Of a DNA stretch of 42,109 nt, positions 1,590 to 42,109 are shown piece after piece. The position numbers and the translations under genes are program-made. The notes under the pieces were generated by a model. It was not told the DNA's origin. It was given only the letters and a program-made list of their open reading frames with translations, and did no database searches. The first letter of the stretch is position 1, and the number at the start of each line of letters is the position of its first letter. The stretch spans positions 1 through 42,109 of the IMG/VR virus record IMGVR_UViG_3300035670_000482. One strand, given 5' to 3'. This stretch comes from a virus.

Positions 1590-1619
1590 TTTATATAATT
1601 TGATTAAATTGCTATATAG
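1590..1619 (-). promoter_or_regulatory. Late-type promoter: CTATATAG + TATA box
   Basis: Minus strand: palindrome CTATATAG (1612-1619), 13 nt, then the TATA-like box TTATATAAA (1590-1598). Transcription should start near 1570, leaving a short leader carrying the GCGAGGA ribosome site before the ATG at 1551. The palindrome directly follows the TAA stop of the preceding gene. Same spacing as the elements at 5547, 8284 and 36900. Confidence 0.7.
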
Positions 1620-5546: not shown

Positions 5547-5576
5547 TATTTAAAATTTGATTAAAAAACTATATAG
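5547..5576 (-). promoter_or_regulatory. Late-type promoter: CTATATAG + TATA box
   Basis: Minus strand: CTATATAG (5569-5576), 13 nt, then TTTTAAATA (5547-5555). The protease ATG at 5525 lies about 26 bp beyond the box, as in leaderless archaeal mRNAs. The palindrome abuts the TAA of the preceding gene. Confidence 0.75.
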
Positions 5577-8283: not shown

Positions 8284-8313
8284 CTTAAATAACTTGATTT
8301 TAAAACTATATAG
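8284..8313 (-). promoter_or_regulatory. Late-type promoter: CTATATAG + TATA box
   Basis: Minus strand: CTATATAG (8306-8313), 13 nt, then TTATTTAAG (8284-8292), and the portal ATG at 8263 about 25 bp beyond the box. The palindrome itself encodes the last residue and stop of the terminase gene. Confidence 0.75.
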
Positions 8314-10632: not shown

Positions 10633-11829
<1,197 letters not shown>

Positions 11830-11843
<14 letters not shown>

Positions 11844-14890: not shown

Positions 14891-15924
14891 ATTTTTTTAG
14901 CCGAGTTATCCCATGTAAATTCTTGGGCAGTTTTAATTGCTTTTAAACCCTTTTGTTTGATTAATTGAGGGTTTGAATATATTTCTCGCATTACTTTCCT
15001 TAATTCTATAATACTCGGTGTTAGCCAACTAATTCCTTCATATTCTAATTCGTGCTTTATCTCAGTCATCTGTCCACCTATTAGCCAGCCATTCTCATCA
15101 TTAACAAAATCTGTTTGTCCGCCGAAATTAGTTGTTAAAACTGGTAATCCACAAGCCATCGCTTCTAAACAAGGAATATTAAACGCTTCTGCTCTTGTTG
15201 GGCTTAAAAATACATTTCCTTTATTATAAAATTCTACTAACTTATTTTGTGGTACTAAATCAAAACTGAATGTTAGTTTAGGAACTCCGGATTTTTTGTC
15301 TGTTAGTTCGGTTATTAATTTAGTTATATCTGGAACTCCATAAACCGGATTTACTTTAATAATTAATTCTACATCGTCTTTATCAGTAAACTCTTCAAAG
15401 TATGCCTTAATTGCATATTGTATTCCGCCCCTATCTTCATTATTTCTCCATCCTTTGTTGCATAAGAAAGTAACTTTGCTTGGCTTTTCTTTTGGATAAA
15501 ATAAATTTAAATCTACTCCATGAGGCACTATGATTAATTTTGATAATATACTATTATCCATAATAACACATTTAGCAACAGCATCATAGGTATGCTTACT
15601 TGGTACAATTATTTTCTCTATTTGAGGGTTTAGCATTTCTTCTATCATATAATCCGGCACTTTATCGCCTTCCCATACACAATAAGCCCAGTTTCTTTTA
15701 CCTAAGTTTAATCTCCAAAATAGTGGGTGTGTTACTATTAAATTAATATCACCGCCTTTTCGTTTAAGCATTTCTAACTCTCTATCGTTTAAGAGTTTCT
15801 CTGCACCGGGATTTATTTGGCTTGTTAATTTGATTGGTTCTATTTTATCAAGAGCGTTGGCTAAACCTTTTGTATGGTTTCCGTATCCGTTTGGTGTTAT
15901 TATATCCCCGATTAAGTTTATCAC
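14875..15924 (-). CDS. Glycosyltransferase, GT4 family
   Basis: 349 residues, GT-B fold. The C-terminal half carries the EX7E motif in AEAFNIPCLEAMACGLPVL and the FVNDENGWL segment. The N-terminal domain includes IVPSKHTYDAV and VPHGVDLNLFYP. It would use a nucleotide-sugar donor on a growing glycan. Four-base ATGA overlap with the GT2 gene upstream. Confidence 0.9.
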   Translation of the reverse strand: MINLIGDIITPNGYGNHTKGLANALDKIEPIKLTSQINPGAEKLLNDRELEMLKRKGGDINLIVTHPLFWRLNLGKRNWAYCVWEGDKVPDYMIEEMLNPQIEKIIVPSKHTYDAVAKCVIMDNSILSKLIIVPHGVDLNLFYPKEKPSKVTFLCNKGWRNNEDRGGIQYAIKAYFEEFTDKDDVELIIKVNPVYGVPDITKLITELTDKKSGVPKLTFSFDLVPQNKLVEFYNKGNVFLSPTRAEAFNIPCLEAMACGLPVLTTNFGGQTDFVNDENGWLIGGQMTEIKHELEYEGISWLTPSIIELRKVMREIYSNPQLIKQKGLKAIKTAQEFTWDNSAKKICQLL

Positions 15925-16778
15925 CTCATTATTAAGTTATTAGCCTTTTTAAGTTCTAATTCACTTACCTCCCCTTTGAATATCTCTTTGAGCTTATCTT
16001 TATTTTCTATTGTGAATTCTTCTAAAATCTTTTGATTAAATGGAACCATATTCATAGTATTTCGTTCTCCACCGCTTGGTGTTGCTAAATGATGATTTAC
16101 TGCGAATGTATTTACTCCGATTTTAAAGCCATTTAATAACGCTTTGTAACTGAATATCTGTTCTTCTCTAAATCCATTCATACTCAATCTTGTTGGATAA
16201 TATTTTACTTTTTCGTGTACTTCTTTCTTAATTAAGGCACAACTACGAAAATGATGAGCTGGTAAAATTAGTTTTTGAGTATAAGGCATTCCACAATCAT
16301 CAAAGTTGCACTTATATGAACCATCTTCGTTTAGTATTACTCTATTGACTATTCCGTTTAAGTGAACTGGGTTTCGTTTGAAAGTCGGTCCAAATGGGAT
16401 TGTTACTCCACTCGCAATATCATAACCTTCTTTAATTACTTCAAAAAGCTGTTCTATATAATCTGGTTCTAAAATGCAGTCATCATCAACTCGAATATAA
16501 TAATCATAGTCTTTCGCCCAATCTACAATCTCTTGTCTGGCTCTACTTACGCCTAAACAAAAATCAGTTCTTTTAACAAATACTTTATGGTTTTCAAGCA
16601 TTATTCTAACTAATAAAGAATTAAAGAAATGATAAGAGTTTAAAGGTGTTCCGCCAAAATCATCTAAAATAAATATATCAAAATCCTGATAAGTTTGAGT
16701 TCTAAGACTTTGTAGTAATAAACATAATTCTGTTGGCCTGTCTTTAGTATTAATTAAAACTGCTACTTTATTCCCCAT
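15921..16778 (-). CDS. Glycosyltransferase, GT2 family
   Basis: 285 residues, GT-A fold. Opening VAVLINTKDRPTELCLLLQSL is the family start, then DIFILDDFGG and the metal-binding acidic motif YYIRVDDDCILEPDYI. A later part includes FRSCALIKKEV. It would add a sugar from a nucleotide-sugar donor. Overlaps its neighbours by a few bases, inside one operon. Confidence 0.9.
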   Translation of the reverse strand: MGNKVAVLINTKDRPTELCLLLQSLRTQTYQDFDIFILDDFGGTPLNSYHFFNSLLVRIMLENHKVFVKRTDFCLGVSRARQEIVDWAKDYDYYIRVDDDCILEPDYIEQLFEVIKEGYDIASGVTIPFGPTFKRNPVHLNGIVNRVILNEDGSYKCNFDDCGMPYTQKLILPAHHFRSCALIKKEVHEKVKYYPTRLSMNGFREEQIFSYKALLNGFKIGVNTFAVNHHLATPSGGERNTMNMVPFNQKILEEFTIENKDKLKEIFKGEVSELELKKANNLIMR

Positions 16779-17434
16779 TTGTTTCTGAAATATTTTCCAG
16801 CCTCCTTTTTAGCTTTCTCGTTTTCTTCAAAGTTTTGAGTATCGTGTAGTCTTTCGTTTGACATATGGTGTTCAACCCAGTAATCTAATTTAAATATATG
16901 TAATCCTGCATTTAAAATCGCATAAGTTAAATCTATATCTACGCCCCAACCTTTTGGGTAATTCTCATCAAAGCCACCGACTTTCTGTATTGCTCTATTT
17001 GTTATGTAAGAACACCAACCACCAATCCATTTAAATCCATCTAAATAATCTGGTCCGCTTATTCCTCCGTAGTTAATTGTAACAACCGCACCTATTCGTT
17101 CGTCTTTTGCTATTTCTATCATTTCGTTTAGCCAATCTCTTTTATATAATTTGAAAAAGGTTACATCTGTTTGAATTAATAATAAATCCTCTCCTCTCTC
17201 TTTAGCTATTTGAAATAATTGATTATATGCCTTTAATGGTCCTTCTCGTTTTGTGTGTATTACTTCTATTTTTGGATTTTTGGCTAACTCGTCGCAGTAT
17301 TCTTTTGTTCCATCTGTGCTTTCGCTCTCTATAATCACAATTTTATAATCTGCTTGGGTAGAGTTCATAAAAGTAGAAATAGCATTCCTAAACGCTTCTA
17401 AATCGTTATGAACAGGGCATCCAATTATTACCAT
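16763..17434 (-). CDS. Glycosyltransferase, GT2 family
   Basis: 223 residues. Start VIIGCPVHNDLEAFRNAISTF, then VIIESESTDGTKEYCDELA are typical GT2 signatures. The usual DxD region reads LLIQTDVTFF, so only one of the two Asp is evident. A later GGFDENYPKGWGVDIDLTY gives the acceptor-side acidic residues. Likely a sugar transferase of the same glycan. Confidence 0.85.
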   Translation of the reverse strand: MVIIGCPVHNDLEAFRNAISTFMNSTQADYKIVIIESESTDGTKEYCDELAKNPKIEVIHTKREGPLKAYNQLFQIAKERGEDLLLIQTDVTFFKLYKRDWLNEMIEIAKDERIGAVVTINYGGISGPDYLDGFKWIGGWCSYITNRAIQKVGGFDENYPKGWGVDIDLTYAILNAGLHIFKLDYWVEHHMSNERLHDTQNFEENEKAKKEAGKYFRNKWGIK

Positions 17435-18234
17435 ATCTCTTTTATCCCCTCATTTAGTTCTATCATAGTTAAATAGTTAATTAAATGTAAGTTATTAGGC
17501 ATAAACTTTTTACTTGGTCCTGTTGGTTTAGTTATATCATATTTAATTGGTTTGTTAGATAATTTACTTAAAATATCTGCGACTTCGCTTATCTTGTTTG
17601 TTTTTCCACTTGTGGCGTTTATTGGTTCGTTTGGCATCTGTTTCATAGTTTCAATCATTATTCTGGCTACATCTCTTGCGTGTATAAAATCTCGTTCTTG
17701 TGTTCCATCGCCCCATACTTCTATTTGTTCATCTTCTTTTGCTTTCTTTAATAAATTACTTATAACCATTCTTTCGCCTTCTAAACTTTCTTTTCCATAA
17801 ACATTTGCTGGTCTGACTATACAGAATTTAGTTTCAGTGCCTTGTATTTGAATTGCTTTAATTAAATGTTCGGCTGTTTGTTTAGCCCAAGCAGGATAAA
17901 AATCACTTTCTGGAAATAATACTGCGATGCTACTTGTATAAAGGAATTTCTTTACTTTACATTCTTGACTTGCTCTAATCATATTTGTATCGCCTTGTAG
18001 CATAGGTATCATAAATTCGGCTGGTTTTTCTTTTGTTCGTTTAGGAGAACCTTTAATCCCGAAAACATGGTAAACTTCGTCCATTCCTTGACAATACTTT
18101 AAGCAAGTCTTATAATCTGTTATGTCATCGCCATTCTTTAAATCTAAAATAAATACTTCGTTGTCTTTTTCTAAAAGTTTTACTAACTCTGTCCCGATTA
18201 AGCCCTCTCCACCCGTGACTAAAATTTTAGACAT
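17428..18234 (-). CDS. NAD-dependent epimerase/dehydratase, extended SDR
   Basis: 268 residues. Cofactor loop VTGGEGLIG at 6-14, a YTSSIAV strand near 99-105, VRPANVYG and GDGTQERDFIHARDVA. The expected YxxxK reads PAWAK: Pro114 lies at the Tyr site, with Tyr113 one position earlier and Lys118 present. The family makes or interconverts nucleotide sugars. Coupled by overlap to the dehydratase-like gene upstream. Confidence 0.85.
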   Translation of the reverse strand: MSKILVTGGEGLIGTELVKLLEKDNEVFILDLKNGDDITDYKTCLKYCQGMDEVYHVFGIKGSPKRTKEKPAEFMIPMLQGDTNMIRASQECKVKKFLYTSSIAVLFPESDFYPAWAKQTAEHLIKAIQIQGTETKFCIVRPANVYGKESLEGERMVISNLLKKAKEDEQIEVWGDGTQERDFIHARDVARIMIETMKQMPNEPINATSGKTNKISEVADILSKLSNKPIKYDITKPTGPSKKFMPNNLHLINYLTMIELNEGIKEIW

Positions 18235-19201
18235 TTTCTCTCCAAAAGTTTAATAAATCTGTTAATGTTTTGACTAATGGTATTTCAGGTTTCCAGCCCA
18301 ATTCTTTAAACTTACTACAATCGGGTATTTGTAAGGTTACATCATAAGGTCTCATTAAATTAGGGTCTTGTTGTTTTATTATTTTATCTTTTGTGCTTAA
18401 ACTTATTAAAATATCCAGCATTTCACCTATTGAACAATGATAATCTCCACCTATATTATAGACTTCGCCCGGAATACCTTTCCTTGATAAGATATAATAT
18501 CCTTTTACTGCGTCTCTTACATCTGCAAATGTTCTAACTGAATTAAGATTTCCGTGTTTGACTATTGGCTCTTGTTTTCCTTTTTCTATTAAGGCTATTT
18601 GTCTGGCGAAATTAACTTCTGCACTTAACATTGTTCTCCTTGGTCCTGTATGCGTGAAAAACCTTGTTCTAATTGTTTTAAGTCCGTAGTTAGTATAATA
18701 CATTAAAGCTAACATATCCTCAGCAACTTTACTTACTGCGTATGGGTTAGACGGATTAAATCTACAAGTTTCTTTAATTGGTATTAAATCTTCGGTTACT
18801 AAGCCATAAACTTCACTGCTTGAACATACGTGAATAATTGGGTCATATCCATCTTTCCTATTTATTCGGATTGCTTCTAATAGATTGAGTGTTCCTTCTC
18901 CGTTTGTTCTAAATGTTTCAATAGGATATTCATAACTTGCATTTACATAACTTTGTGCTCCTAAATGAAATATATAATCTGGTTTAATTTTTTCTATTAC
19001 TCTTAAACAAGAAGATAAATCGTTTAAGTCCATTAAAACCCAATTGACTTTATCTTTTATGTGTTTGAAACTATCTTGGTTATCTGTCCATCTATAAGTT
19101 ATATAAACTTCTTCGCCTTTCTCTAATAAATAATCTGCTAAATGAGAAGCTACAAATCCCGGTCCCGTTATTAACGACCTAACCATATTTAATTTCTCCA
19201 T
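18227..19201 (-). CDS. Nucleotide-sugar dehydratase/epimerase, GDP-mannose dehydratase-like
   Basis: 324 residues. The C-terminal two-thirds match the family: FHLGAQSYVNASYEYP, SSSEVYG, the intact catalytic YAVSK, TRFFTHTGPRR and SVRTFADVRDAVKGY. This is the layout of GDP-mannose 4,6-dehydratase-like enzymes. The Gly-rich loop is unusual: TGPGFVASHL is one residue shorter than the common TGxxGFxG form and ends in Ala. An HNH gene overlaps its start; ATG at 19201 or at 19186 are both possible. Confidence 0.85.
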   Translation of the reverse strand: MEKLNMVRSLITGPGFVASHLADYLLEKGEEVYITYRWTDNQDSFKHIKDKVNWVLMDLNDLSSCLRVIEKIKPDYIFHLGAQSYVNASYEYPIETFRTNGEGTLNLLEAIRINRKDGYDPIIHVCSSSEVYGLVTEDLIPIKETCRFNPSNPYAVSKVAEDMLALMYYTNYGLKTIRTRFFTHTGPRRTMLSAEVNFARQIALIEKGKQEPIVKHGNLNSVRTFADVRDAVKGYYILSRKGIPGEVYNIGGDYHCSIGEMLDILISLSTKDKIIKQQDPNLMRPYDVTLQIPDCSKFKELGWKPEIPLVKTLTDLLNFWRENV

Positions 19202-19553
19202 AATGATTTATTGCATGACAATTGGCACATAATAGTTCTACTTTACTTAAATCAAAATCTAATTTAAACCAATCTCTTTTATATAATTTTTCGTCTTTAT
19301 GGTGTATTTGTAATGCTCTTGTATCTGTAAATCCACATCTTGAACATTTATTATTTAATAAATTATATATTTCAATAGTTCTTTTTTCTTGCCATAATCT
19401 GTTTAATTCATTATACCTCAATCTATTATCTTTTTTCCATTTTTTAGAATTATCTTTATATCTTTGTTTATTTTTTTGATAATTCTCTTTATTCTTCTTC
19501 AAAAACTTTTCACGATTTTTAATATAATACTCGTGTTTATTTTTTTTAATCAT
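19179..19553 (-). CDS. HNH homing endonuclease-like protein
   Basis: 124 residues from ATG 19553, which follows GGGAGAA and overlaps the preceding stop as ATGA. A long basic Lys/Asn/Tyr-rich N-terminal part is followed by a zinc/HNH unit: CSRCGF, LQIHHKDEK and LLCANCHAINH. Free-standing homing endonucleases have this look. It and the next HNH gene form a tandem pair inserted between the cupin and the dehydratase gene. Confidence 0.8.
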   Translation of the reverse strand: MIKKNKHEYYIKNREKFLKKNKENYQKNKQRYKDNSKKWKKDNRLRYNELNRLWQEKRTIEIYNLLNNKCSRCGFTDTRALQIHHKDEKLYKRDWFKLDFDLSKVELLCANCHAINHYGEIKYG

Positions 19554-20101
19554 TTTGTATTCTCCCTTGTCAAAATGTTCCATCTTGCTTTATCTACCTT
19601 ACAATGACAATCTAAACATAATGTAATGCCATTATTTATATCAAATCTCAATTCAGGATATTTTGCGAATGGCTTTATATGATGTACTTCTAATTTTCCT
19701 AATGCTCCACATTCTTGACAAGTAAAATCGTCTCTTTCTAAACATCTTTTTCTCCATAAGAAATTCTCTTTACTAACTCTTTGATATTTATTAATTAATG
19801 CAACCCCCCCATGCCAATTAGGATTATTCTTCCCTTGCATTCTAATAGAGTGATTTTTCTTCCATTCTTCAGAGTGTTTAATATTTCTCGGTTTTCTCAT
19901 ACTATTTGAAACTCTTTTCTTATATTCTGGATTACCCCATCTTTGTTTATTATTTTCAGATATTTTTGGAATTATTTTTCCTTTATTCTTTGATGGTCTA
20001 CCTTTTAGTGATTTAGATATATTCATTTTGTGGTTATCACTAAATTTTCTATTTTTTAATGCTTCTGATATTTTTTGTTTATGTTCTTCTGTAAATTTCA
20101 T
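19550..20101 (-). CDS. HNH homing endonuclease with NUMOD-type repeats
   Basis: 183 residues from ATG 20101 (ATGA overlap with the cupin stop). N-terminal NUMOD3-like DNA-binding repeats (FTEEHKQKISEALKNRKF, FSDNHKMNISKSLKGR), a NPNWHGG motif, then the HNH nuclease CQECGALGKLEVHHIKPF with LCLDCHCKV. Cuts DNA to spread its own gene. It interrupts the glycan operon without breaking a glycan gene. Confidence 0.85.
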   Translation of the reverse strand: MKFTEEHKQKISEALKNRKFSDNHKMNISKSLKGRPSKNKGKIIPKISENNKQRWGNPEYKKRVSNSMRKPRNIKHSEEWKKNHSIRMQGKNNPNWHGGVALINKYQRVSKENFLWRKRCLERDDFTCQECGALGKLEVHHIKPFAKYPELRFDINNGITLCLDCHCKVDKARWNILTRENTK

Positions 20102-20490
20102 ATTTTTGTTAATTCGCGAGGGCAATCATTATAATCTCCGCTTAAATAAGTAGCACCAGCTATATCCACTATAATTGAACCTTTACTAAACATTCCCCCG
20201 TGGATTATTCCAGCACTTCTAAACACAATATCTCCTTCGCCTAATTCAAATGTTTCTTTTTCGCCAGTAAAAACATTCTCCATAACATAATCCCAGACTT
20301 TGCCTTTCATTACATACATACATTCTTCGTACAAATGCCAATGCCCACTTTTACCACCTAAATAACTATCCTCTTTGACTTCTAATATCTTAATGTTTTT
20401 GCCATCGAATTGCCCGTTCATTAGTTCTACGAGTTTTCTTCTTTCGTCTTCATTGACTACATTAGCTTTACAAACTTTTACGCCTTTCAT
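20098..20490 (-). CDS. Cupin-fold sugar isomerase/epimerase-like protein
   Basis: 130 residues from ATG 20490, which sits five bases after GGAGG. A cupin signature is clear: GHWHLYEECMYVMKG gives the His/Glu metal ligands and SAGIIHGGMF the second motif. Cupins in sugar clusters are epimerases or isomerases, but this one is short and could also bind a ligand only. Neighbouring SDR and TPP enzymes suggest a role in making an unusual sugar. Confidence 0.75.
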   Translation of the reverse strand: MKGVKVCKANVVNEDERRKLVELMNGQFDGKNIKILEVKEDSYLGGKSGHWHLYEECMYVMKGKVWDYVMENVFTGEKETFELGEGDIVFRSAGIIHGGMFSKGSIIVDIAGATYLSGDYNDCPRELTKI

Positions 20491-20699
20491 ATTAACCTCC
20501 AAATTGCATAAGCTATAAGTCCTGTTATTGCAATAGCAAAAGAGATTACTGGGATTACAAAAGTAAATATTTCTCTCATCAAATCGGCTTGCCCCTCAAC
20601 ATATCCTTCAATATATTCACTGGATGGAAATTTCCAATTAGGGTTATACCATTTTGTTTTAATTATAAATGGTTTAATCTTTTTTTCTTTTGTTTTCAT
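20487..20699 (-). CDS. Small membrane protein
   Basis: 70 residues. Basic N-terminal half (MKTKEKKIKPFIIKTKWYNP) and one C-terminal transmembrane helix (TFVIPVISFAIAITGLIAYAIW). Start taken at ATG 20699 in a TAATG overlap; an ATG two codons upstream is also possible. Function unknown. Confidence 0.6.
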   Translation of the reverse strand: MKTKEKKIKPFIIKTKWYNPNWKFPSSEYIEGYVEGQADLMREIFTFVIPVISFAIAITGLIAYAIWRLI

Positions 20700-20890
20700 T
20701 ACCATGTTTGTTTATATAAATACCTCTTTCTACAATTTTTGCATGTAATTTTCTTTCCTCTCCAATTAGTTTTCTGGATAAGTTGTTCTGTTGATAAATC
20801 CCCAATTGCATGAATACAAGCATAATAAACTCCTTTTGGTGTTGCGTCTGCTTTGTGGACAATATTGGTTTTGAATTTTGTTTTTATCAT
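20699..20890 (-). CDS. Small zinc-knuckle protein
   Basis: 63 residues with ITCKNCRKRYLYKQTW at the end: one CxxC pair and basic residues, suggesting nucleic-acid or metal binding. Another Cys is in YYACIHAIG. No family recognised. Linked by TAATG overlap to the next gene. Confidence 0.55.
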   Translation of the reverse strand: MIKTKFKTNIVHKADATPKGVYYACIHAIGDLSTEQLIQKTNWRGKKITCKNCRKRYLYKQTW

Positions 20891-20895
20891 TTGGT

Positions 20896-21012
20896 TTACT
20901 CCTTAATATCTTGTATTAACCTATTTAATTTTTTTAATTCTACTAAAATAAGGGCAACTAATTCTGCAGTTGTATACTCCCCGCCCGGCAAATCTGGAAT
21001 ATTTATATTCAT
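20896..21012 (-). CDS. Very small protein, helical
   Basis: 38 residues, sequence opening MNINIPDLPGGEYTTAELVA followed by a charged helix. ATGA-type overlap with the stop of the nuclease gene upstream. Too short to assign. Confidence 0.5.
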   Translation of the reverse strand: MNINIPDLPGGEYTTAELVALILVELKKLNRLIQDIKE

Positions 21013-21488
21013 TCAAACTCCTCGAAGATTATTTCTTTGCCTTGTTTTTTTGCTATTAGTATCTTACTAAATATTTTATTTTCTAAAAGCCATTTACATT
21101 TTTCTTTTTCTATTTTGTCTAATCTTCCATTTATCTTACATTCAACCCCAAAAACAATATGTGTTAATTTAAAATGAAACATTTGGGTATAGTCATATCC
21201 ATCTTTTGGTTTTATTAAACTGCCTACATTTCTTGGGAGTATAAACTTATTTGCTTGTTCTAAGTCTTCATTAGCTATTACAATAAAATCTGGAAAACCA
21301 GAACCTTCTCCAACTATTCTCTTAAAGAATGGGTTATATTGTGCTTTTGCAGAAGTTAATTTATTATCTTTTACATTATTACACCATTTACTTACTATCC
21401 AGCCACAATTTTCAAGCATCTTTCTTACTGCTAATTCAAATTTTTTACCATTCGCTCTGTTTTTCTTTCCCTGTGTTTGTTTATTCAT
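21009..21488 (-). CDS. PD-(D/E)xK nuclease, resolvase-like (putative)
   Basis: 159 residues. N-terminal helix GKKFELAVRKMLENCGWIVSKW, then GSGFPDFIVIANED and VFGVECKINGRLDKIEKEK, giving the D...ExK spacing typical of PD-(D/E)xK nucleases such as archaeal Holliday junction resolvases and VRR-type enzymes. It may process replication or recombination intermediates, and is oddly placed inside the glycan operon. Confidence 0.7.
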   Translation of the reverse strand: MNKQTQGKKNRANGKKFELAVRKMLENCGWIVSKWCNNVKDNKLTSAKAQYNPFFKRIVGEGSGFPDFIVIANEDLEQANKFILPRNVGSLIKPKDGYDYTQMFHFKLTHIVFGVECKINGRLDKIEKEKCKWLLENKIFSKILIAKKQGKEIIFEEFE

Positions 21489-22030
21489 TTGAATACCCCT
21501 GTCGGTTTTTCTATTATTAAAGTACTTAATCCGTTTTTGGCTCTTTCAAACGCTTCTAAATAATTTAATTTAACTTCTTCTGGCGTTTTAGGGCTTAATA
21601 CTAAAATATGTTTGAGCATACTTTTCAATCCTCTTGTATAATCTCCGCAATGTTGTGCCCCCGGATATAATGGTTTTTTATTGCCTATTTGAGTTCTAAT
21701 TATTACACCCGGACAGAATTCCCCATTACTCATTTCTTCAACTTTATCTAAATGATTAACTAATTGGTTAGTCGCACAAATCAAAAAGTCAATTCTCGGA
21801 AATATACTCACTGGGATAAATCCGTTTAAAGCTAATCCAATACTCATACCTAATTGTGTATCTTCAAATACAGGCATTTCTTTCTTCTTGTTTGGCTTGA
21901 CTTTCTCTAAACTTTTGAACATTGGGCTACCGGGATATTCTGTTGTTTGCCCTAAAAATATAACTTCTTTGTTTTTACCAAGCATTTCCATACTCTCTTT
22001 AATTGATTTTTGATAATCACTTGAAGACAT
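21485..22030 (-). CDS. TPP enzyme, pyrimidine-binding subunit (E1 beta-like)
   Basis: 181 residues from ATG 22030, preceded by AGGTGAT. The motif FEDTQLGMSIGLALNGFIPVS matches the pyrimidine-binding domain of transketolase/E1 beta proteins, with Glu as the usual cofactor activator. A separate C-terminal transketolase domain is absent, so the protein is shorter than typical subunits. It pairs with the gene just upstream. Together they would move a two-carbon unit between sugars or keto acids. Confidence 0.8.
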   Translation of the reverse strand: MSSSDYQKSIKESMEMLGKNKEVIFLGQTTEYPGSPMFKSLEKVKPNKKKEMPVFEDTQLGMSIGLALNGFIPVSIFPRIDFLICATNQLVNHLDKVEEMSNGEFCPGVIIRTQIGNKKPLYPGAQHCGDYTRGLKSMLKHILVLSPKTPEEVKLNYLEAFERAKNGLSTLIIEKPTGVFK

Positions 22031-22652
22031 TGTAATCACCTTCTGTTTTTAGTTTATTTTGCAATTTGATAAATTCGCCTACCCCATAATGAGGATATTT
22101 TCTAACATATCTGTAATAGATTACTTTATCTGATTTATAATATAACTTATTGCCCCAGACTATTTCTGTTGGTGAATTACAGCCAAGCCCGTTATCTTCT
22201 ATTACAAAAATAATCGGCAAATCAAAGTTAATCGCATATTTTACTGCTTCATTGAAACAGCCCATCTCACTGGCCATATCTCCTACAAAGCAATATACTT
22301 TACTTTTTTGTTTCTTTAATTTGATTGAATAAGCTACTCCTAATGCTATTGGGATTATTCCTCCTACTATTGCACTTGTGAATATTTTATATTTTCTTGA
22401 ATTTATATGGCTTGAATTTGCTTTTTTAATTATTTCATTCATTAACCATTCTTTATCTTTACTTTTTAATAATGCGTGATAATGACTTCTATGTGTAGAG
22501 AATACCCAGTCATTTCTTTTTATGTCTTTGAATATTTTAATTAATTGTTCTTCGTTTCCACCCGATAAATGAACTGGTCCGTAAGTAAACCCTTTCTTAT
22601 ATTCAGTTACTACTTTTTCCTCAAACTTTATTAAATCATCCGCTTTCATCAT
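22017..22652 (-). CDS. TPP enzyme, cofactor-binding subunit (E1 alpha-like)
   Basis: 211 residues from ATG 22652. The TPP motif is GDMASEMGCFNEAV through FVIEDNGLG (GD followed about 27 residues later by an Asn pattern), with YGPVHLSGGNEE and FSTHRSHYHALL near the start, the latter typical of E1 alpha. It partners the next gene as the thiamine-binding half. Overlaps the nucleotidylyltransferase stop. Confidence 0.85.
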   Translation of the reverse strand: MMKADDLIKFEEKVVTEYKKGFTYGPVHLSGGNEEQLIKIFKDIKRNDWVFSTHRSHYHALLKSKDKEWLMNEIIKKANSSHINSRKYKIFTSAIVGGIIPIALGVAYSIKLKKQKSKVYCFVGDMASEMGCFNEAVKYAINFDLPIIFVIEDNGLGCNSPTEIVWGNKLYYKSDKVIYYRYVRKYPHYGVGEFIKLQNKLKTEGDYNVFK

Positions 22653-23142
22653 CAAAACACATCCTATAAACATCTTTATCACTTGCTATTAATCTACTTG
22701 AACTAAACCCTGGTAAATCGTCCATTAAGATTAATTCGCCATTCCATTCTTTTAGTATTTCGCCTTCTATTCCTTTATAACCAGCTTTACTCTTTAAATG
22801 TAAGTTTGGTTTAACTGCTCTTAAAAATTGTTCTGGTGTATCTTGAGTAAATAGAACTACCCCATTGACATCTCTTAATTTTCCGAGATTATATGCTCTT
22901 TGTATTTCATTATGTACTGGTGTTCTTCCTTTGAATTGTTTTATATAATCGTCTGAATTAATTCCAACTAATAGAATATCCGCATTTTGTTTAGCTAACT
23001 CAAAACCTTTTAAATGTCCGTAATGTAAAACATCGAAACAACCATTTGTTGTGGCTACTTTTCTATTTGGATAAGAAGCCCGGTATTTATCCATAAAGTT
23101 CTTTACTTCTTCTAAGTTCATATAACATCTTACTTCGTTCAT
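22636..23142 (-). CDS. Nucleotidylyltransferase, RfaE C-terminal-like
   Basis: 168 residues. TTNGCFDVLHYGHLKGFELAK has the HxGH signature (HYGH), followed by VGINSD and PGFSSSRLI, as in the nucleotidyl domain of heptose cytidylyl/adenylyltransferases. It would activate a sugar or polyol phosphate. ATGA overlap with the upstream gene. Second such enzyme in the cassette. Confidence 0.85.
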   Translation of the reverse strand: MNEVRCYMNLEEVKNFMDKYRASYPNRKVATTNGCFDVLHYGHLKGFELAKQNADILLVGINSDDYIKQFKGRTPVHNEIQRAYNLGKLRDVNGVVLFTQDTPEQFLRAVKPNLHLKSKAGYKGIEGEILKEWNGELILMDDLPGFSSSRLIASDKDVYRMCFDDESG

Positions 23143-23555
23143 AGTATTCCCTCAAAATTATAACCTTTAGTTCTACAAATATCTGCTGCCAAACAATCTG
23201 TTTTCAAGTCTATTCTTTCGCCTAATTCGTTACTTATAACATTCTTAGCTAAGTTTCTTACTCCGTTGACTGAATGCGTGAATTTTAATAAACTATCTTG
23301 TTCTGTTCCGCCTTGTCTTGCTTTAAATTCGTTCTGCCAGATTATCTCATTAGAAATAGCATTTACTTGAACTGCTCTTATAAATTGTCCGAAGTTTTTA
23401 ATTTTCTTTTCTTTTAATATCTCTGAAATATCACTTATTATTTCTTGGGCTTCCTTTTCATAGGCTTCTTTGTTTTCAGAGAGTTTTATTGATTTGAGTG
23501 TAACTATACTTAATCTATCTATTAACTCACTAATCGTCGGCAAGTATTTTCTCAT
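23139..23555 (-). CDS. Conserved hypothetical protein of sugar-cluster type
   Basis: 138 residues from the TAATG-overlap start at 23555 (an upstream start at 23588 is out of step with the neighbouring gene). Helical: LPTISELIDRLSIVTLKSIKL, and a C-terminal GYNFEGIL. Similar sequences appear beside glycosyltransferases in my memory of bacterial and viral sugar clusters, but I do not know a biochemical role. Inference from context only. Confidence 0.6.
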   Translation of the reverse strand: MRKYLPTISELIDRLSIVTLKSIKLSENKEAYEKEAQEIISDISEILKEKKIKNFGQFIRAVQVNAISNEIIWQNEFKARQGGTEQDSLLKFTHSVNGVRNLAKNVISNELGERIDLKTDCLAADICRTKGYNFEGIL

Positions 23556-23716
23556 TAAAATCCACCACTTATCGCAAAATAAATACATACAATTTCTAAA
23601 ACAAAGGCTATAAATGGGGTATAAGCATTATATTCTCTTGTTTCTCCGTGTTTTACAATATTAATTATAACTCCTAAAATTCCTAACATTATAATTGTAA
23701 AAAACCACCAGTTCAT
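23555..23716 (-). CDS. Small membrane protein, two helices
   Basis: 53 residues: helix 1 (FFTIIMLGILGVIINIV), a polar loop (KHGETREYNAYT), helix 2 (PFIAFVLEIVCIYFAI). Overlaps both neighbours by the ATGA/TAATG pattern, which supports it as a real gene. Role unknown. Confidence 0.6.
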   Translation of the reverse strand: MNWWFFTIIMLGILGVIINIVKHGETREYNAYTPFIAFVLEIVCIYFAISGGF

Positions 23717-23850
23717 CTTATTCTCCCGTATATATCTTTTAATCTAAGTAAATCATTTAATTCATCCTTCAAAGTGTTTAAACATTCAAATTCAAATTCT
23801 TCGTTTATTAAAATTCTCCATTTTCCGTCATACATTCTTATTGAAATCAT
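23713..23850 (-). CDS. Small hypothetical protein
   Basis: 45 residues: a strand region (ISIRMYDGKWRILINEEF) and a helix (LNTLKDELNDLLRLKDIYG). ATGA overlaps at both ends. No family recognised. Confidence 0.55.
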   Translation of the reverse strand: MISIRMYDGKWRILINEEFEFECLNTLKDELNDLLRLKDIYGRIR

Positions 23851-25109
23851 TTGCCTACACCTACTATAATTTGATTAGAAAATAGCCAGTTTGGAGTTTG
23901 TTTTATTTCCATTATTTCACCTAATTTTTTAAGCCACCATTCTTTGTTCTTGAAAATCTTATGGGTTTTATCTTTGTATAAGTTTTCATCGCCTTCGAAT
24001 GGAATGCTTACTATATAATAGGTGTTGGGGTTTTTAAAGTTTATTAATACTTTATCTAATTCTTGCTCAGTTAAATGCTCTAATACATCAATCATTAAAA
24101 TAATATCTTCTCCGTTTGCTTCGTGGTCTAAAATATTACCTTGCTGAATATTCATTTGATAAGGGTTTGTTTGACAGGCATATTTGCTTAATTCTATTCC
24201 TTTATAATTGACTTCATCTTTAATCGGAAAGCCATAAACACCGAACCCACACCCTAAATCTAATACTCTTGGCTTGTAATCTCTTGGGCATTCTACATAT
24301 TCATAAAATCCGTTTAGCCATTGTCGGCTCATTATAAAGTGTTTAATCTCTAATTGTCTATTTTGAAAATAAAATAAATCTTTATCTACTCCGAAATGAT
24401 TTAATATCGTTTCAGGAATATCAATAGGATTTACTTGGCTTTTAGGATAAGTTCCGAACAAATGAGAATAATACCAGTTCATTAAATAAGCCGGAGTATG
24501 CATATTAGATTTAGCTAAATGGTTTTCGTATTTCTTTTTAAATTCAAATAGATTAGGTATATAAGATAAGTGCCAGATAGTCGTTGCTTTGGTTTGATAT
24601 TGTTTGTTTAAATCTTTTGGAATTAAAACTGGGTGTTCTACTTCTGGGTATTTGTCTGCTTCGCTTATCTTGAATAATCTATTTAATACATAATGTTCTT
24701 TGTTTGTAGCGTCTTCGTGCCCTAAATCCCCTATAAAATGCCTCATAGAAACGCTATAAACCCCTTCTGGTGCGTTATTTACGAAGTTTCGTAGTTTATC
24801 ATAGTCTTCTACCACCTCATCAGCATCAAGGCATAAAACCCAGTCATTAGGGTAATTTGTTTTTAAATAGTTTAAATAAAAGTTTCTGGTAATACCATTT
24901 TGTCTTTTATCTTCCTTATTATATTTCAAACTAATTAATTCAAATTTATTTGGATATTTTAATTTCCATTCTTTGTATTTTTCCATTGTTTTATTATCTT
25001 CTTCCCCCCAACAAAAAACAATCTTTTCAGAATTTAATACAGAACTAAAACACATATCTAAAAAGTTACTACAATTATCACCCATAACACAAGTAATTAA
25101 TTGTTGCAT
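23847..25109 (-). CDS. Glycosyltransferase GT2-methyltransferase fusion
   Basis: 420 residues. N-terminal GT-A domain with LITCVMGDNCSNFLDMC and the acidic DWVLCLDADEVVEDYD; C-terminal class I SAM methyltransferase from about residue 285 with RVLDLGCGFGVYG (motif I), YKGIELSKYA and MIDVLEHLTEQEL. One chain would transfer a sugar and methylate the product or substrate. It ends at a small-protein gene by ATGA overlap. Confidence 0.85.
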   Translation of the reverse strand: MQQLITCVMGDNCSNFLDMCFSSVLNSEKIVFCWGEEDNKTMEKYKEWKLKYPNKFELISLKYNKEDKRQNGITRNFYLNYLKTNYPNDWVLCLDADEVVEDYDKLRNFVNNAPEGVYSVSMRHFIGDLGHEDATNKEHYVLNRLFKISEADKYPEVEHPVLIPKDLNKQYQTKATTIWHLSYIPNLFEFKKKYENHLAKSNMHTPAYLMNWYYSHLFGTYPKSQVNPIDIPETILNHFGVDKDLFYFQNRQLEIKHFIMSRQWLNGFYEYVECPRDYKPRVLDLGCGFGVYGFPIKDEVNYKGIELSKYACQTNPYQMNIQQGNILDHEANGEDIILMIDVLEHLTEQELDKVLINFKNPNTYYIVSIPFEGDENLYKDKTHKIFKNKEWWLKKLGEIMEIKQTPNWLFSNQIIVGVGK

Positions 25110-25732
25110 ATTGTCTCCTTAATAGTGTTAACGCACTTTACAACATCTGCTTTTATCTCATGCTCCCAAAATCTTAATATCCTCCAACCAGAAACTTTTA
25201 GATAAGTATTTTTCGCTTTATCCTTTTTCTTTATGTCTTCTCTATTGTGCCAATAGTCTCCATCACATTCAACAATTAATTTACATTCTGGGATAGCAAA
25301 ATCACAAACAAATCTTCCAAATGGAAATGGGTGTTTAAATAAAATTCCTTGGGCAATCATTTCCTTTTCCATCATTCTTTCAATTATGGTATTTGTCTGG
25401 GGGAATAATCCATTTAAATGCTGTTTAATAGTGTTTTTTCTAATCTTTTCTTTAGTTTTATCAGATACTATTCTATTCTTTGCAGCCCTACTAAGATTTT
25501 CTCTATGTGTTTTAGTGAATATCTTATTTCTATAATGTTCTTTGCTTATCTCCGAATGTTTAAATCCAATGAGAGGATTATTTTTTCTTCTGTTAGTATG
25601 ATAACAATTCATAGAACAAAACCTTGCCTTGTTTATTCTTTTAAAAGTAACATAGAAACCTTTGCTACATTCCTCACAGAAGTTTTCTCCACCCGTACAT
25701 CTACTTGGTCTTTTTCTTTTCAATTTTTCCAT
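25097..25732 (-). CDS. Homing endonuclease, Vsr/EDxHD-like
   Basis: 211 residues. N-terminal Cys pairs (CEECSKG, FCSMNCYH), NUMOD-like repeats (GFKHSEISKEHYRNKIF, RENLSRAAKNRI) and a C-terminal very-short-patch-like nuclease domain: FVCDFAIPECKLIVECDGDYWHN, then WRILRFWEHEI. Free-standing homing endonucleases of phages use this fold. It overlaps the radical SAM gene by 13 bases at its start and the fusion gene by 13 bases at its end, so it sits cleanly at a gene junction. Confidence 0.8.
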   Translation of the reverse strand: MEKLKRKRPSRCTGGENFCEECSKGFYVTFKRINKARFCSMNCYHTNRRKNNPLIGFKHSEISKEHYRNKIFTKTHRENLSRAAKNRIVSDKTKEKIRKNTIKQHLNGLFPQTNTIIERMMEKEMIAQGILFKHPFPFGRFVCDFAIPECKLIVECDGDYWHNREDIKKKDKAKNTYLKVSGWRILRFWEHEIKADVVKCVNTIKETICNN

Positions 25733-26898
25733 GTTGCCCTCGCTTCTTTTACTAAATCTTCTATTCTTTTAGATGTTAGATGCTCTGTATCTATAACACA
25801 TCTTGCGGTTTTACCTGCTTCTAAATATTTTGTATAATCTTTGTCTTTTATTTTAATACCATATTTATCTGGATTGTTCCAAATCGGTGTTCCCGGAAAT
25901 GGTGTCAAATAATAAAAGTCTGCTTGTTTTAATCCCCACTTGCTTAAATCTTGTGCTAATCTTATCGTTCTTCTGGCGGTTACTTCACTTTCACCCGGCA
26001 AACCAATTATAAAAAATCCTTTTACAGGTATTCCCCAATTATGAGCCATCTCAACTGCATTGATATTATCATAAACATTCATTTTCTTATTGCTTCTGGC
26101 TAATATCTCGTCATCTCCGCTTTCTATACCCATGCTTAAACATTCACATCCGTTATTAGCCAATATATTTATTTTGTCTTTGTCTATTAGATTTGCTCTT
26201 GTTGTGCATCTAAAAGGTAAATCTATTTCCCTACAAAAATCTGTTATTTCTTTCATTCTTTCTCGGTCGAGAGTAAATACATCATCAAGAAAATAAACTG
26301 ATTTGAATTTTCCTTTTAATGTATTTAATTGTTTTTTAACTTCACCCATATCATAATTTCTTACTTTTCTTGATAGATTAAAGCAAAATGCACAATTATA
26401 TGGGCATCCCCTACTTGTTAAGATAGTTCCTTGTTGCCCCGCTATACCATACCTACTTAAATCCAAATCTGTCTTTAAAGTTAATTTATCTAAACTTACT
26501 GGTGGTGCGTGTATTAAACCATTATGGCTTAATGCTATGTTAAATCCTTGTTCGCCTTCTCCACAAACTACACTATCAAAATGGTCTGTTAAACTTAAAG
26601 GCATTGCACTCGCATGATAACCACCTACAATGGTTTTTGTTTTACCTCTAAATGCTTTTCCGTATGCTACTGCTTCTGGATAAATCGCACTCGTATAACA
26701 ACTAACTCCTACTGCGTCTGGTTTGTCTTTATGAAATTGCCTCATTAAGTCTAAATCGCTTTCGTGGTTCATATCCCATATTTTTACTTTATATCCTCTG
26801 TTTTTCATATATTCAGAAATACTACACAATCCAAGAGGTATTCTATCACCTGCGTTGTCTAAAATTCTTCTCTCGTTTGGGTTTATTAAGTAGAGCAT
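25720..26898 (-). CDS. B12-binding radical SAM protein
   Basis: 392 residues. N-terminal Rossmann-like B12 domain (VKIWDMNHESDLDLM, VGVSCYTSAIYPEAV, TIVGGYHASAMP), then the radical SAM core with CxxxCxxC in SRGCPYNCAFCFNLS, the FLDDVFTLD segment and GIESGDDEIL. Members do methylations and other hard radical chemistry on sugars, lipids and cofactors. In this cassette it may modify a glycan carbon. Overlaps its neighbours. Confidence 0.85.
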   Translation of the reverse strand: MLYLINPNERRILDNAGDRIPLGLCSISEYMKNRGYKVKIWDMNHESDLDLMRQFHKDKPDAVGVSCYTSAIYPEAVAYGKAFRGKTKTIVGGYHASAMPLSLTDHFDSVVCGEGEQGFNIALSHNGLIHAPPVSLDKLTLKTDLDLSRYGIAGQQGTILTSRGCPYNCAFCFNLSRKVRNYDMGEVKKQLNTLKGKFKSVYFLDDVFTLDRERMKEITDFCREIDLPFRCTTRANLIDKDKINILANNGCECLSMGIESGDDEILARSNKKMNVYDNINAVEMAHNWGIPVKGFFIIGLPGESEVTARRTIRLAQDLSKWGLKQADFYYLTPFPGTPIWNNPDKYGIKIKDKDYTKYLEAGKTARCVIDTEHLTSKRIEDLVKEARATWKN

Positions 26899-28139
26899 AG
26901 TTCATTAAATAGATTTTCAAATTGCTGTGCTACTTTCTGAAAGTCATATTTTTCTGTTACTGCTTTAATTCCGTTTTCGCCCATTACTTTTCTAATCTCT
27001 GGATTATTAGCCAGAAATACTATCTTATTCGCAGCATCAGTTATTTCACATAAGCCCCTTTCTACTTCCCAACTGCCCATTAAAGTACCATTTATAATCT
27101 TTAAATCGTATTCCTTTGAGTTCATTATGAAAAAGTCTTTATAATTTACTTCTTCGCAACCTGCTAATTTTATACCTAATCCTGCTTGGTTCTCCTCAAC
27201 TAATTCTGGCGTAGTAGTATATTGTGTTGCTAAAACAGGTACTCCACATTTCATTGCCTCTATTATTGGAATACCAAAACCTTCTCCACTTGTAGATAAA
27301 AAGAATATATCCATTAAATTATAAACATCGTTCATTTCTGCTTGTCCGAACCCTTCATGACATCGCATTCCAGAAAAAAATACTCTATTCTCTAAATTAT
27401 ATCTCTGTATCATTTTACCCATATTGAAAGTCTGTCCAGCTGGGTCGTTAGGGTCTAAGTGTAAAAATAAAACTGCGTTTGGTATTTTGTCTTTCATTAA
27501 GGCAAAACTCTTAAAAGTTCTGTCTAACATTTTTCTTGGCTGATTTCGTGCAACTACTCCAACAACAAATTTGTCCGTTAAACCCCATTTGGCTCTTAAT
27601 CTATTTCGTTCTTCTTCGCTTAATTTTCTGAATAGGTTTATGTTTAATCCGTGTGGAATATGCCTTACATTTAAATTGTGATAATCTTTAACTTGTTTCT
27701 GTCCGAATTTAGCCATAGCCACTGGACAATCTACTTTCTTTAATATTTGTTCGCAGTTATTCGGTAACCCGTTTCCTCCGTCTGATGGAAACCAAAACAC
27801 ACTTTTAGCCGGGCTTAAATCTATTTCTAATAATCTTGGATAAAGCATAAAGGTATCTAACAGAATAAATAAAATATCTGTTTTAGTTTTCTTTAAATGT
27901 TCGGACAGAGTATTCATAAAATAAGAGTGTATCATTTCGCCATAGACTTTAAAGTTTATTTTTGTTCCATCAAACAATTCAGCATTTTTTATTGTCATTC
28001 CATTATAAGCATTGCCCAGAAAATGCACCTCGTATCCTCTCTCTGTTAAGTATTGAGCCAACATCAAACTTTGGTTCCTATACCCAGTTGGAATAAAACA
28101 ACTATCAGATAAAATAGTAATAACTTTAGGTGTAGGCAT
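26886..28139 (-). CDS. Glycosyltransferase, GT4 family
   Basis: 417 residues from ATG 28139, downstream of GAGGAGA. GT-B fold with the EX7E motif in GEGFGIPIIEAMKCGVPVLAT, VVGVVARNQPRKMLD in the linker and IPHGLNINLFRKLS. The N-terminal domain opens KVITILSDSCFIPTGY. It is the first large gene of the glycan operon, after the AbrB-like gene, which it overlaps by 14 bases. Confidence 0.9.
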   Translation of the reverse strand: MPTPKVITILSDSCFIPTGYRNQSLMLAQYLTERGYEVHFLGNAYNGMTIKNAELFDGTKINFKVYGEMIHSYFMNTLSEHLKKTKTDILFILLDTFMLYPRLLEIDLSPAKSVFWFPSDGGNGLPNNCEQILKKVDCPVAMAKFGQKQVKDYHNLNVRHIPHGLNINLFRKLSEEERNRLRAKWGLTDKFVVGVVARNQPRKMLDRTFKSFALMKDKIPNAVLFLHLDPNDPAGQTFNMGKMIQRYNLENRVFFSGMRCHEGFGQAEMNDVYNLMDIFFLSTSGEGFGIPIIEAMKCGVPVLATQYTTTPELVEENQAGLGIKLAGCEEVNYKDFFIMNSKEYDLKIINGTLMGSWEVERGLCEITDAANKIVFLANNPEIRKVMGENGIKAVTEKYDFQKVAQQFENLFNELCST

Positions 28140-28332
28140 AATTTTCAATCTCCTCTTTTGTCGGTTTGAATAAACAACCACTCTCGCAAAATATTCCGTA
28201 TCTTGTGCCTATCTTAATGACTTCATATTTAAAAGAAACTTCTGGGAAAAATTCTGCAATATCGTTTGGTATTGCCAATCCTTTTAACTCTTTGCCACTC
28301 TTTTCATAAGCGATTGTTCTTAATTTACCCAT
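28126..28332 (-). CDS. AbrB-like DNA-binding regulator (putative)
   Basis: 68 residues. The centre reads KGLAIPNDIAEFFPEVSFKYEVIKIGTRYG, close in pattern to the swapped-hairpin AbrB fold (basic strand, IPxxI helix start, then two strands). It would bind DNA as a dimer. It is leaderless by position (TATA centre 24 bp upstream) and has the palindrome CTATATAG between TATA box and ATG, the site found in late promoters, so autoregulation plus control of virion genes is a plausible hypothesis. Confidence 0.55.
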   Translation of the reverse strand: MGKLRTIAYEKSGKELKGLAIPNDIAEFFPEVSFKYEVIKIGTRYGIFCESGCLFKPTKEEIENYAYT

Positions 28333-28336
28333 GAAA

Positions 28337-28360
28337 CTATATAGTAACCATCTTTATAAA
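28337..28360 (-). promoter_or_regulatory. Promoter of AbrB-like gene with downstream CTATATAG
   Basis: TATA box TTTATAAAG (28352-28360) followed by CTATATAG (28337-28344) in the space before the ATG at 28332. The palindrome would cover the start of transcription, a place used by repressors. In the late promoters the same palindrome lies upstream of the TATA box. Confidence 0.6.
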
Positions 28361-28361
28361 T

Positions 28362-28640
28362 TTAATTAAATAAACTATTTATTTTTTTAATTGCTTTTTT
28401 GATTGTTCTTTTTGAATTAACTATTAAATCTAAATGGTCCTGCATCTTCTTATTCTTTGGCTGAAAGATTGTTGTGATTAAACCCTTTTCTTTTAACTTT
28501 TTTAAATGATTGACTAATCTTATATAATCGTGTTTGAGCCTTTCCTTTACGAGAATATAATTCCCAGTATTCACAACAAAATTAAACTTTCTAATGTCTT
28601 TAATATCCTTAACATAAACTACTTCTATTAAATGTTCCAT
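28362..28640 (-). CDS. Small basic protein, unknown
   Basis: 92 residues, basic and helical in the second half (LVNHLKKLKEKGLITTIF, KMQDHLDLIVNSKRTIKK). Leaderless by position. The helix LVNHLKKLKEKGLI resembles part of a winged-helix segment, so a regulator is possible but not shown. Confidence 0.5.
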   Translation of the reverse strand: MEHLIEVVYVKDIKDIRKFNFVVNTGNYILVKERLKHDYIRLVNHLKKLKEKGLITTIFQPKNKKMQDHLDLIVNSKRTIKKAIKKINSLFN

Positions 28641-35687: not shown

Positions 35688-35877
35688 TCTCTAAAGCCTC
35701 CAAACGATTATTTAAGCCACTCAATACAACTTTGATATTATTTAATTTATTATCAACATTTCTTGAAAAGTTGGCTATTCTTTTCATGTTTTTATAAATT
35801 CTTAATAAATGAAATTGGCTATCTCCAGCTATAATATTGTTTAATTCTGCTTCATCGTTGTCTAATTCTTCTTCCAT
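35680..35877 (-). CDS. Small coiled-coil protein
   Basis: 65 residues, helical and charged (LLRIYKNMKRIANFSRNVDNKLNNIKVVLSGL within residues 24-55) with heptad-like hydrophobic spacing. Between two tail genes. Likely a trimeric or dimeric stalk or assembly helper. Confidence 0.5.
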   Translation of the reverse strand: MEEELDNDEAELNNIIAGDSQFHLLRIYKNMKRIANFSRNVDNKLNNIKVVLSGLNNRLEALENV

Positions 35878-36878
35878 TATAGGTTATATATTGCACCATA
35901 GTTTTTTGTTATAAATTGGGTTGTTGAACCCCCAGATACACAAAACATAAATTTAACAAAACTTCCTCCATTAGTGGATGCAAAACTTAAATCTTTTGTT
36001 TGTGTCCAAGAAGTACCGCTATTTGTGGATATGTAAAAACTTCCATTTTCTCCGTATACATTGGCCAAAGGCATTATATTCGTTGTAGAACCAACCATAG
36101 AACCAGTAACAGGTAAATAAGAACCATTTAAACCTGCTCCAGAAGTTAAATTATAAAAATACAAGCTATCAATATAATAATGTCCTTCGAAGGTATTTCC
36201 ATAGAATTTTATTTTAAAATCGCTTCCTGTTAGAGTATGGTTCCAGGCTCGATATAATCCTCTACCGCCGACTGCCCCCATTCTTGGATTTCCGGATGCC
36301 AATGTTAAAGCATATTCTGGGGTTAATAATATATCATAAACAGCATTACTATCCCATTCTGATTGTGGAAACTCGCTCACCAAAATAGAACCACCTGCTC
36401 CAGTGAACCATATTTGTAAAGTCCCAAAACCTGGGTTTGCTCCTTGAAGAAAATTTACTCTAAGCATTCCTGCTCTAATATTTTTTGTAAATGTACTCTC
36501 TACTCCAGTGCCACTATAAATAGTTAATTTTCCGCTTACTATCGCAGGACTTCCAGTTAGCGTCCACGAACCAGTATTTAATGAAGTAAAATCATCTATA
36601 AGTACCATACTTCCATCTGAAATTAAGTTTGGATTTGGCATTATAACGGAAGGGAAAAAAGCAGTATCTGCACCCGAGGTTATATTAAAAGCATTTGCAC
36701 TACCGCCAGTGGGCATTCCAAAAGTATTAAATATATTTTTTGTTTTATGAGTTGAAGGCAAACCTGAATAAGCATAAAAATTATTTCTAAATGCAACTCC
36801 TTGTAGACTAATTGCTCTGTTTACTTCACTTGCATAGAGTATGTCACCGTCTACTTTTGGAAATTGTCCTTCTGTCAT
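35877..36878 (-). CDS. Tail fibre protein (putative)
   Basis: 333 residues. Starts with a short anchoring-like segment (PKVDGDILYASEVNRAIS) then Gly/Ser/Thr-rich beta sequence (SFYISTNSGTSWTQTKDLSF near the end). This fits tail fibre or receptor-binding proteins. First gene after a CTATATAG promoter, with TATA centre about 26 bp before its ATG, so leaderless. Confidence 0.55.
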   Translation of the reverse strand: MTEGQFPKVDGDILYASEVNRAISLQGVAFRNNFYAYSGLPSTHKTKNIFNTFGMPTGGSANAFNITSGADTAFFPSVIMPNPNLISDGSMVLIDDFTSLNTGSWTLTGSPAIVSGKLTIYSGTGVESTFTKNIRAGMLRVNFLQGANPGFGTLQIWFTGAGGSILVSEFPQSEWDSNAVYDILLTPEYALTLASGNPRMGAVGGRGLYRAWNHTLTGSDFKIKFYGNTFEGHYYIDSLYFYNLTSGAGLNGSYLPVTGSMVGSTTNIMPLANVYGENGSFYISTNSGTSWTQTKDLSFASTNGGSFVKFMFCVSGGSTTQFITKNYGAIYNL

Positions 36879-36899: not shown

Positions 36900-36929
36900 C
36901 TTAAATAACTTAACTTATTAGCTATATAG
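36900..36929 (-). promoter_or_regulatory. Late-type promoter: CTATATAG + TATA box
   Basis: Minus strand: CTATATAG (36922-36929), 13 nt, then TTATTTAAG (36900-36908). Matches the 5547 and 8284 elements. The palindrome follows directly after the TAA of the 37289 gene. Confidence 0.75.
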
Positions 36930-42011: not shown

Positions 42012-42109
42012 TTTTTCCTCCTTATGTGATTAAAAAAATAAATAAAAAAAATCTGCCTAATCACCAGGCATTATATTTGCTAACTGTATCAATAGCGCTT
42101 CCAACTATA
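41983..42109. repeat. Terminal direct repeat, right copy
   Basis: Second copy of the 127-base end repeat. Joining the two copies gives a 41,982 bp circle in which the tail operon runs continuously from the tail tube gene into the membrane protein, chaperone and tape measure genes. Confidence 0.95.

Follow-up and report, generated by a model that had tools for sequence, protein, structure and literature searches.

A candidate position-dependent switch protein and its palindromic sites in uncultivated, putatively archaeal tailed viruses

The promoter of a small virus gene, encoding the 68-aa protein P0001, carries between its TATA box and its start codon the same 8-bp palindrome, CTATATAG, that stands upstream of the TATA-like boxes of virion genes. 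This raises the question of whether a single protein, acting through a single kind of site, could shut off its own promoter while turning on the late genes. We put the probability at roughly 70 % that the 68-aa protein is such a position-dependent autorepressor and late activator. At the level of the DNA, we show the sites and their fixed positions, a wiring kept in relatives and, within one virus, letters that match between the regulator and late promoters.

The window and its five palindromes

The virus record IMGVR_UViG_3300035670_000482 was analysed over its whole length of 42,109 bases (the window). It ends in a 127-base terminal direct repeat (1–127 = 41983–42109) and therefore probably represents the complete genome, as a circular map or a circularly permuted one; terminal repeats of 119, 121 and 81 bases occur in the relatives G031, G057 and G081, respectively. 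The ORF list places most of the likely genes on the minus strand, and Pfam and PHROG matches identify it as a head-tailed virus with genes for a large terminase, portal/Mu-F, phage capsid, tape measure and tail. Our assignment of the host domain as archaeal rests on the TATA/BRE-like promoters and on a capsid match to Halogranum tailed virus 1, which had the lowest E-value for the capsid among the matches listed in phage records. Searches of genome contigs with portal and capsid alignments returned no relative. By our reading, glycosyltransferase-like and sugar-nucleotide-type genes form a large block at 13207–28181, and a fusion of ParB-N with an N6/N4 DNA methyltransferase is found at 10629–11843.

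A preliminary description of this DNA had counted five copies of CTATATAG, four of them upstream of TATA in late promoters and the fifth separating the TATA box from the start codon of the 68-residue gene; all of this is borne out (Table 1). Five copies compare with a mean of 0.70 and a largest value of 3 in 100 dinucleotide shuffles of the window. Read on the minus strand, the regulator promoter consists of the TATA box TTTATAAA, 8 nt, the palindrome, TTTC and the ATG (28332), with the centre of the palindrome 8.5 nt 5′ of the ATG; the spacing from TATA box to ATG suggests a leaderless transcript. The other four copies lie 42–60 nt 5′ of the ATGs of same-strand genes, upstream of a TATA-like box, the distance from palindrome centre to ATG being 46.5 to 47.5 nt in three promoters and 64.5 nt in the fourth, whose leader is longer. 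The genes concerned encode the portal protein, where the palindrome overlaps the terminase stop codon, a protease-type head protein (ATG 5525), a tail-terminator-like protein and a protein of unassigned function (ATG 36878) whose homologues have N-termini of the form ..FPKVDGD. Orthologues of the site before this last gene are present in G031, G070, G094 and G079.

Table 1. Coordinates of the putative regulator, its neighbours and the palindrome-bearing promoters in the window
Feature	Position	Strand	Basis or remark
68-aa putative regulator P0001	28126..28332	-	ORF; homologues in 10 other viral records
GT4-type glycosyltransferase	26886..28139	-	Pfam Glycos_transf_1; next gene downstream of regulator
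Conserved 92-aa neighbour, function unassigned	28362..28640	-	Directly upstream of regulator
CTATATAG in blocking position, regulator TATA box/ATG interval	28337..28344	.	Sequence
Regulator promoter TATA box TTTATAAA	28353..28360	-	Sequence
CTATATAG upstream of TATA box, virion gene 35877-36878 promoter	36922..36929	.	
TATA-like box, promoter of virion gene 35877-36878	36900..36907	-	PWM register
CTATATAG upstream of TATA box, portal (portal/Mu-F, ATG 8263) promoter	8306..8313	.	
TATA-like box, portal promoter	8284..8291	-	PWM register
CTATATAG upstream of TATA box, protease/head gene 4680-5525 promoter	5569..5576	.	
TATA-like box, promoter of protease/head gene 4680-5525	5547..5554	-	PWM register
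CTATATAG upstream of TATA box, tail-terminator-like gene 1099-1551 promoter	1612..1619	.	
TATA-like box, promoter of tail-terminator-like gene 1099-1551	1590..1597	-	PWM register

Under the mechanism we propose, the 68-aa protein, probably a dimer and possibly of AbrB-like swapped-hairpin fold, would recognise the CTATATAG palindrome. Bound downstream of the TATA box of its own promoter, it should block RNA polymerase recruitment, which would shut off the regulator together with the glycan genes behind it, presumably carried on the same transcript. At virion promoters, the site precedes the TATA box by about two helical turns and does not overlap the BRE-like element; protein bound there should aid TBP/TFB recruitment and so turn the late genes on. 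Regulator and glycan genes would accordingly be transcribed early and, as the protein accumulates, its own promoter would close and the virion promoters would open.

The palindrome before portal and regulator genes of relatives

A terminase search among viral contigs provided a first set of 80 related loci, none of which (0/80) has a strict CTATATAG followed by a TATA-like stretch. We rejected the idea that the palindrome is missing from relatives, as this 0/80 is accounted for by a change of class, the relatives using other palindrome classes. The portal protein as a single query gave no match among viral contigs; an alignment search with the portal returned 80 loci, 73 of them new. The 83 portal loci were reduced to 78 by removal of five without a start and, after merging of those with identical last 60 nt, to 67, giving 68 distinct upstream regions with the window. 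A perfect NTATATAN palindrome was detected at −75 to −40 in 40 of the 68, a count lowered by mechanically picked start codons, some of which are apparently wrong (e.g. L050, L144, L149); shuffled upstream regions gave a mean of 3.1 and a maximum of 8 (300 rounds). By class, these palindromes are ATATATAT (19), GTATATAC (18), CTATATAG (2) and TTATATAA (1).

In 37/40 regions, the palindrome starts at −51 or −50 from the portal ATG, and it is this conserved position, beyond the mere number, that led us to reject chance as its source. When the promoters are aligned by their palindromes, a BRE-like TCAA appears at +16 to +19 and the TATA box at +22 to +29, the palindrome ending about 8 nt 5′ of the BRE-like element and its centre standing about two helical turns from that of the TATA box. 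Some of the 28/68 regions without a strict palindrome contain near forms, and others look like cases in which the portal gene is not the first of its operon or its start was mis-chosen. Separately, four loci (L109, L110, L112 and L114) carry a repeated AAATAATAAGTAC-type element before the portal gene, replacing the TATATA palindrome.

Homologues of P0001, which as a single query found none among viral contigs, were recovered later via the terminase and via alignments. The first, in the 43-kb relative G031 (E value 8.5e-7, 43 % identity), is located directly behind a homologue of the 92-aa neighbour. CTATATAG is absent from G031, which contains six copies of GTATATAC (0.6 expected): one each before the portal, protease, tail-terminator-region and FPKVDGD genes, one elsewhere and one in the TATA/ATG interval of the regulator. 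Homologues in ten other records, making 11 with the window, were confirmed by a family profile. Detection was low, at 1/50 in the set that yielded G031, 10/50 in portal-type records (two-sequence profile) and 0/50 in other or shorter records (11-sequence profile), because most relatives are short fragments; the regulator is present in all seven records of at least 40 kb among the 50 portal-type records.

A strict palindrome occupies the TATA/ATG interval, at −26 to −9, in 8/11 regulator genes. In eight records, 9 of 584 mechanically called ORF starts have a palindrome at this position; four of the nine are regulators, and the count for non-regulator starts is 5/576. This list missed the true start of the G070 regulator, which has the palindrome. 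The regulator promoter of G081 has GTATAAAA in the blocking position and that of G060 has CTATATAT, not a strict palindrome, while the G057 regulator gene has none itself, the blocking site lying in the promoter of a gene that precedes and overlaps it. The same motif is thus found upstream of BRE/TATA in late genes and downstream of TATA in regulator genes.

The surroundings of the regulator are also conserved. In the window, the probable ATG of the glycosyltransferase gene (28139) overlaps the end of the regulator gene by 14 nt, and in 8/8 near-complete records a homologue of this GT4-type enzyme is the next major same-strand gene, one to several small ORFs intervening in some. The wiring put forward in the preliminary description, namely a blocking site in the regulator's own promoter, an upstream site in late promoters and same-strand glycan genes downstream, is therefore strongly supported by the relatives; the resemblance to AbrB that it also put forward is not confirmed by sequence (see below). 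At 1503 and 11137, G070 (L175) has further copies of GTATATAC placed to block non-virion genes, that at 11137 within the glycan region, which suggests that the repressed gene set may be wider than the regulator and the adjoining glycan genes.

The 92-aa family lies directly upstream of the regulator in 11/11 records (profile search) and is a possible partner. A palindrome of the record's class is missing from its own upstream 80 nt in every case (0/11, script reading), the one TTTTATAC found there in G070 not being of G070's class. With this neighbour lacking such a site and the P0001 family standing alone in the core (see below), autoregulation points to the 68-aa family as the probable binder.

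A host factor or another viral protein could bind the palindrome instead, leaving the 68-aa gene as a repressed target only. Our choice of binder is drawn from sequence, the letter classes of the palindrome could track the host, and Sta1 offers a precedent in the part of PMC5569661 that presents it as a host factor acting at viral promoters. We nevertheless regard this explanation as unlikely. The core of the eight near-complete records comprises 14 families, of which ten belong to the virion region and three are glycosyltransferase-like (one assigned by Pfam, two by our reading); the P0001 family is the only one that is neither. The blocking site recurs at precisely this gene and is rare at others, and there is no evident reason for such constant targeting without autoregulation.

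If, on the other hand, the protein repressed at all its sites, as does the lysogeny-type F55 of SSV1, its loss would free the late genes. Most characterised archaeal-virus regulators are repressors according to the portion of PMC5569661 that covers them, but the same portion has the F55 sites reportedly overlapping the TSS and BRE, whereas the late sites described here end short of the BRE-like element at a constant two or so turns from TATA, which is the geometry of an activator; we consider repression throughout improbable. It is less probable still that the 92-aa neighbour binds the DNA, by itself or together with the 68-aa protein: its constant position and a weak, sub-threshold HTH_11 match in the window copy (E value 0.0056) speak for it, and the lack of class palindromes before its gene and of any HTH match in the G031 copy speak against it.

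Fold of the 68-aa protein and known counterparts

The reading of the 68-aa protein as position-dependent autorepressor and late activator had come with the claim that it resembles AbrB. Sequence searches did not confirm this. P0001 had no match in Pfam or PHROG at E≤1, and its 11 homologues matched no AbrB-type family in Pfam, NCBIfam or PHROGs; PF04014 found nothing in the window, with control genomes 14/14 positive. The G056 copy of the regulator had no match among GenBank phages at E≤1. No TrmB profile matched P0001 (E≤1) or the homologues, and neither did any ribbon-helix-helix (RHH) family; RHH regulators have an N-terminal strand and then two helices, and the low-confidence models are beta-rich. 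A search of solved-structure sequences with the regulator profile returned two matches (E values 0.49 and 0.78), which we rejected as relatives, and the family has no relatives in the libraries searched (Pfam, NCBIfam, PHROGs and solved-structure sequences). Comparison with the N-terminal domains of AbrB/Abh/SpoVT by hhalign gave a probability of 0.3 % over 7 columns (LAIPNDI/VVIPIEL), with an AbrB profile of only three sequences.

The family consensus reads K-L-R-x-I, a variable loop and G-L-T-x-P-N-E-I-A-x-F-F, followed in the model by two strands with S-G turns and then a helix. AbrB has the order beta-beta-alpha-beta-beta, and the best model of P0001 (E4-9, E15-19, H23-27, E32-41, E44-53, H59-64) displays the same order at low confidence (mean pLDDT 67, pTM 0.34); that of a second family member (pLDDT 61) is without the helix after strand 2 and is no gain on the first. 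With the P0001 model, Foldseek placed the AbrB-like C68 and C56 at ranks 2-3 (E values 2.1-2.3), and C56 was the only structure at Z≥2 (Z 2.2, rmsd 6.5, 52 residues aligned), both weak matches. AbrB, MazE and SpoVT chains were absent from the structure-comparison matches, which carries little weight with 139 chains compared. A search of BFVD gave nothing significant, the rank 2 hit (E value 1.2) being named as a stationary/sporulation regulator. An AbrB-like fold is thus a plausible lead from the first model, which the second does not reproduce.

The logic of such a switch is already known from cells, in TrmBL1, and from AvtR of a lipothrixvirus with another fold and arrangement, as far as the relevant part of PMC5569661 goes. 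In Pyrococcus furiosus, the available portion of PMC4706686 has TrmBL1 activating from a site upstream of BRE/TATA and repressing from one downstream of TATA, by blocking RNA polymerase recruitment. As proposed for the 68-aa protein, it is a single factor whose outcome is set by the position of its site; unlike the 68-aa family, it is a cellular, TrmB-type regulator of sugar metabolism, and Pfam links the two in no way. AvtR of Acidianus filamentous virus 6 is closer in setting: it comes from an archaeal virus, represses its own gene and is also able to activate, and in 2017 it was the sole such protein by the account in that part of PMC5569661. The same account gives it an RHH fold, tandem motifs, an imperfect inverted repeat and concentration-dependent activation at one promoter, whereas the 68-aa family is predicted to be beta-rich, with sites that keep a fixed place ahead of virion operons.

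C68 of pSSVx and C56 of pSSVi are, like P0001, small proteins of archaeal elements. C68 is described as a swapped hairpin on a beta-sheet scaffold that binds its own promoter; its motif is not the TATATA palindrome, and the section concerned mentions no late-gene role for either protein (PMC5569661). Apart from the structural similarity of C56 given above, neither has a significant sequence or fold match to the 68-aa protein. F55 of SSV1 is likewise a small viral regulator that acts on its own promoter as well as on further viral ones, but in the same section it is an RHH protein with tandem-repeat sites that represses early genes in lysogeny (PMC5569661).

None of the papers listed in our literature search describes the proposed switch. 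Late-gene timing in archaeal tailed viruses is poorly known, and few activators have been described from archaeal viruses. If the proposal is true, a single small protein acting through an 8-bp site would explain the change from early to late transcription in a lineage known from metagenomes only, with a testable prediction for each member from sequence alone and a handle for annotating late promoters in these viruses.

Operator letters within and between viruses

To compare the letters of the regulator and late sites, we scanned the 11 regulator records, at a score cut of 12, with a promoter model derived from the portal promoters. The class test covers nine of these, G099 and G060 being omitted as the model found no convincing late element in them. 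With classes assigned by us, and that of G057 read in the promoter of the gene before it, the letters agree exactly between regulator and late promoters in 8/9 records, while the classes differ between viruses. As good an agreement arose in 48 of 362,880 permutations (1.3e-4), a figure that serves as a guide and not as a formal probability since the records are related; without G057, 7/8 agree, and 12/40,320 permutations are as good.

The agreement is clearest in G081, where all five model matches above the cut are GTATAAAA or its reverse complement and where the seven occurrences of GTATAAAA include five in late promoters and one in the blocking position of the regulator. The model matches in G079 are CTATATAA (three) and CCATATAA (one), plus the regulator promoter read backwards, and its regulator site, TTATATAA, is one base off its late sites. 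The second late site of G056 and the second site of G064 are off-class, only the portal promoter scores in G057, and one of the four late sites of G070 scores 9.3, below the cut.

A portal tree of 41 rows, four of whose class labels were set by hand, needs eight class changes. With moderate confidence, we read these data as a minimal ancient switch of uncultivated archaeal tailed viruses, a self-repressing late activator of about 70 residues whose operator letters may have been rewritten several times, at the regulator and at as many as five late promoters together. If so, the lineage would supply regulators with matched operators, a natural series in which to trace the evolution of binding specificity. 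In G081 (L172, L173), the asymmetric GTATAAAA occurs in both orientations at equal distance from TATA (12848 and 17000 versus 7954, 26589 and 27810).
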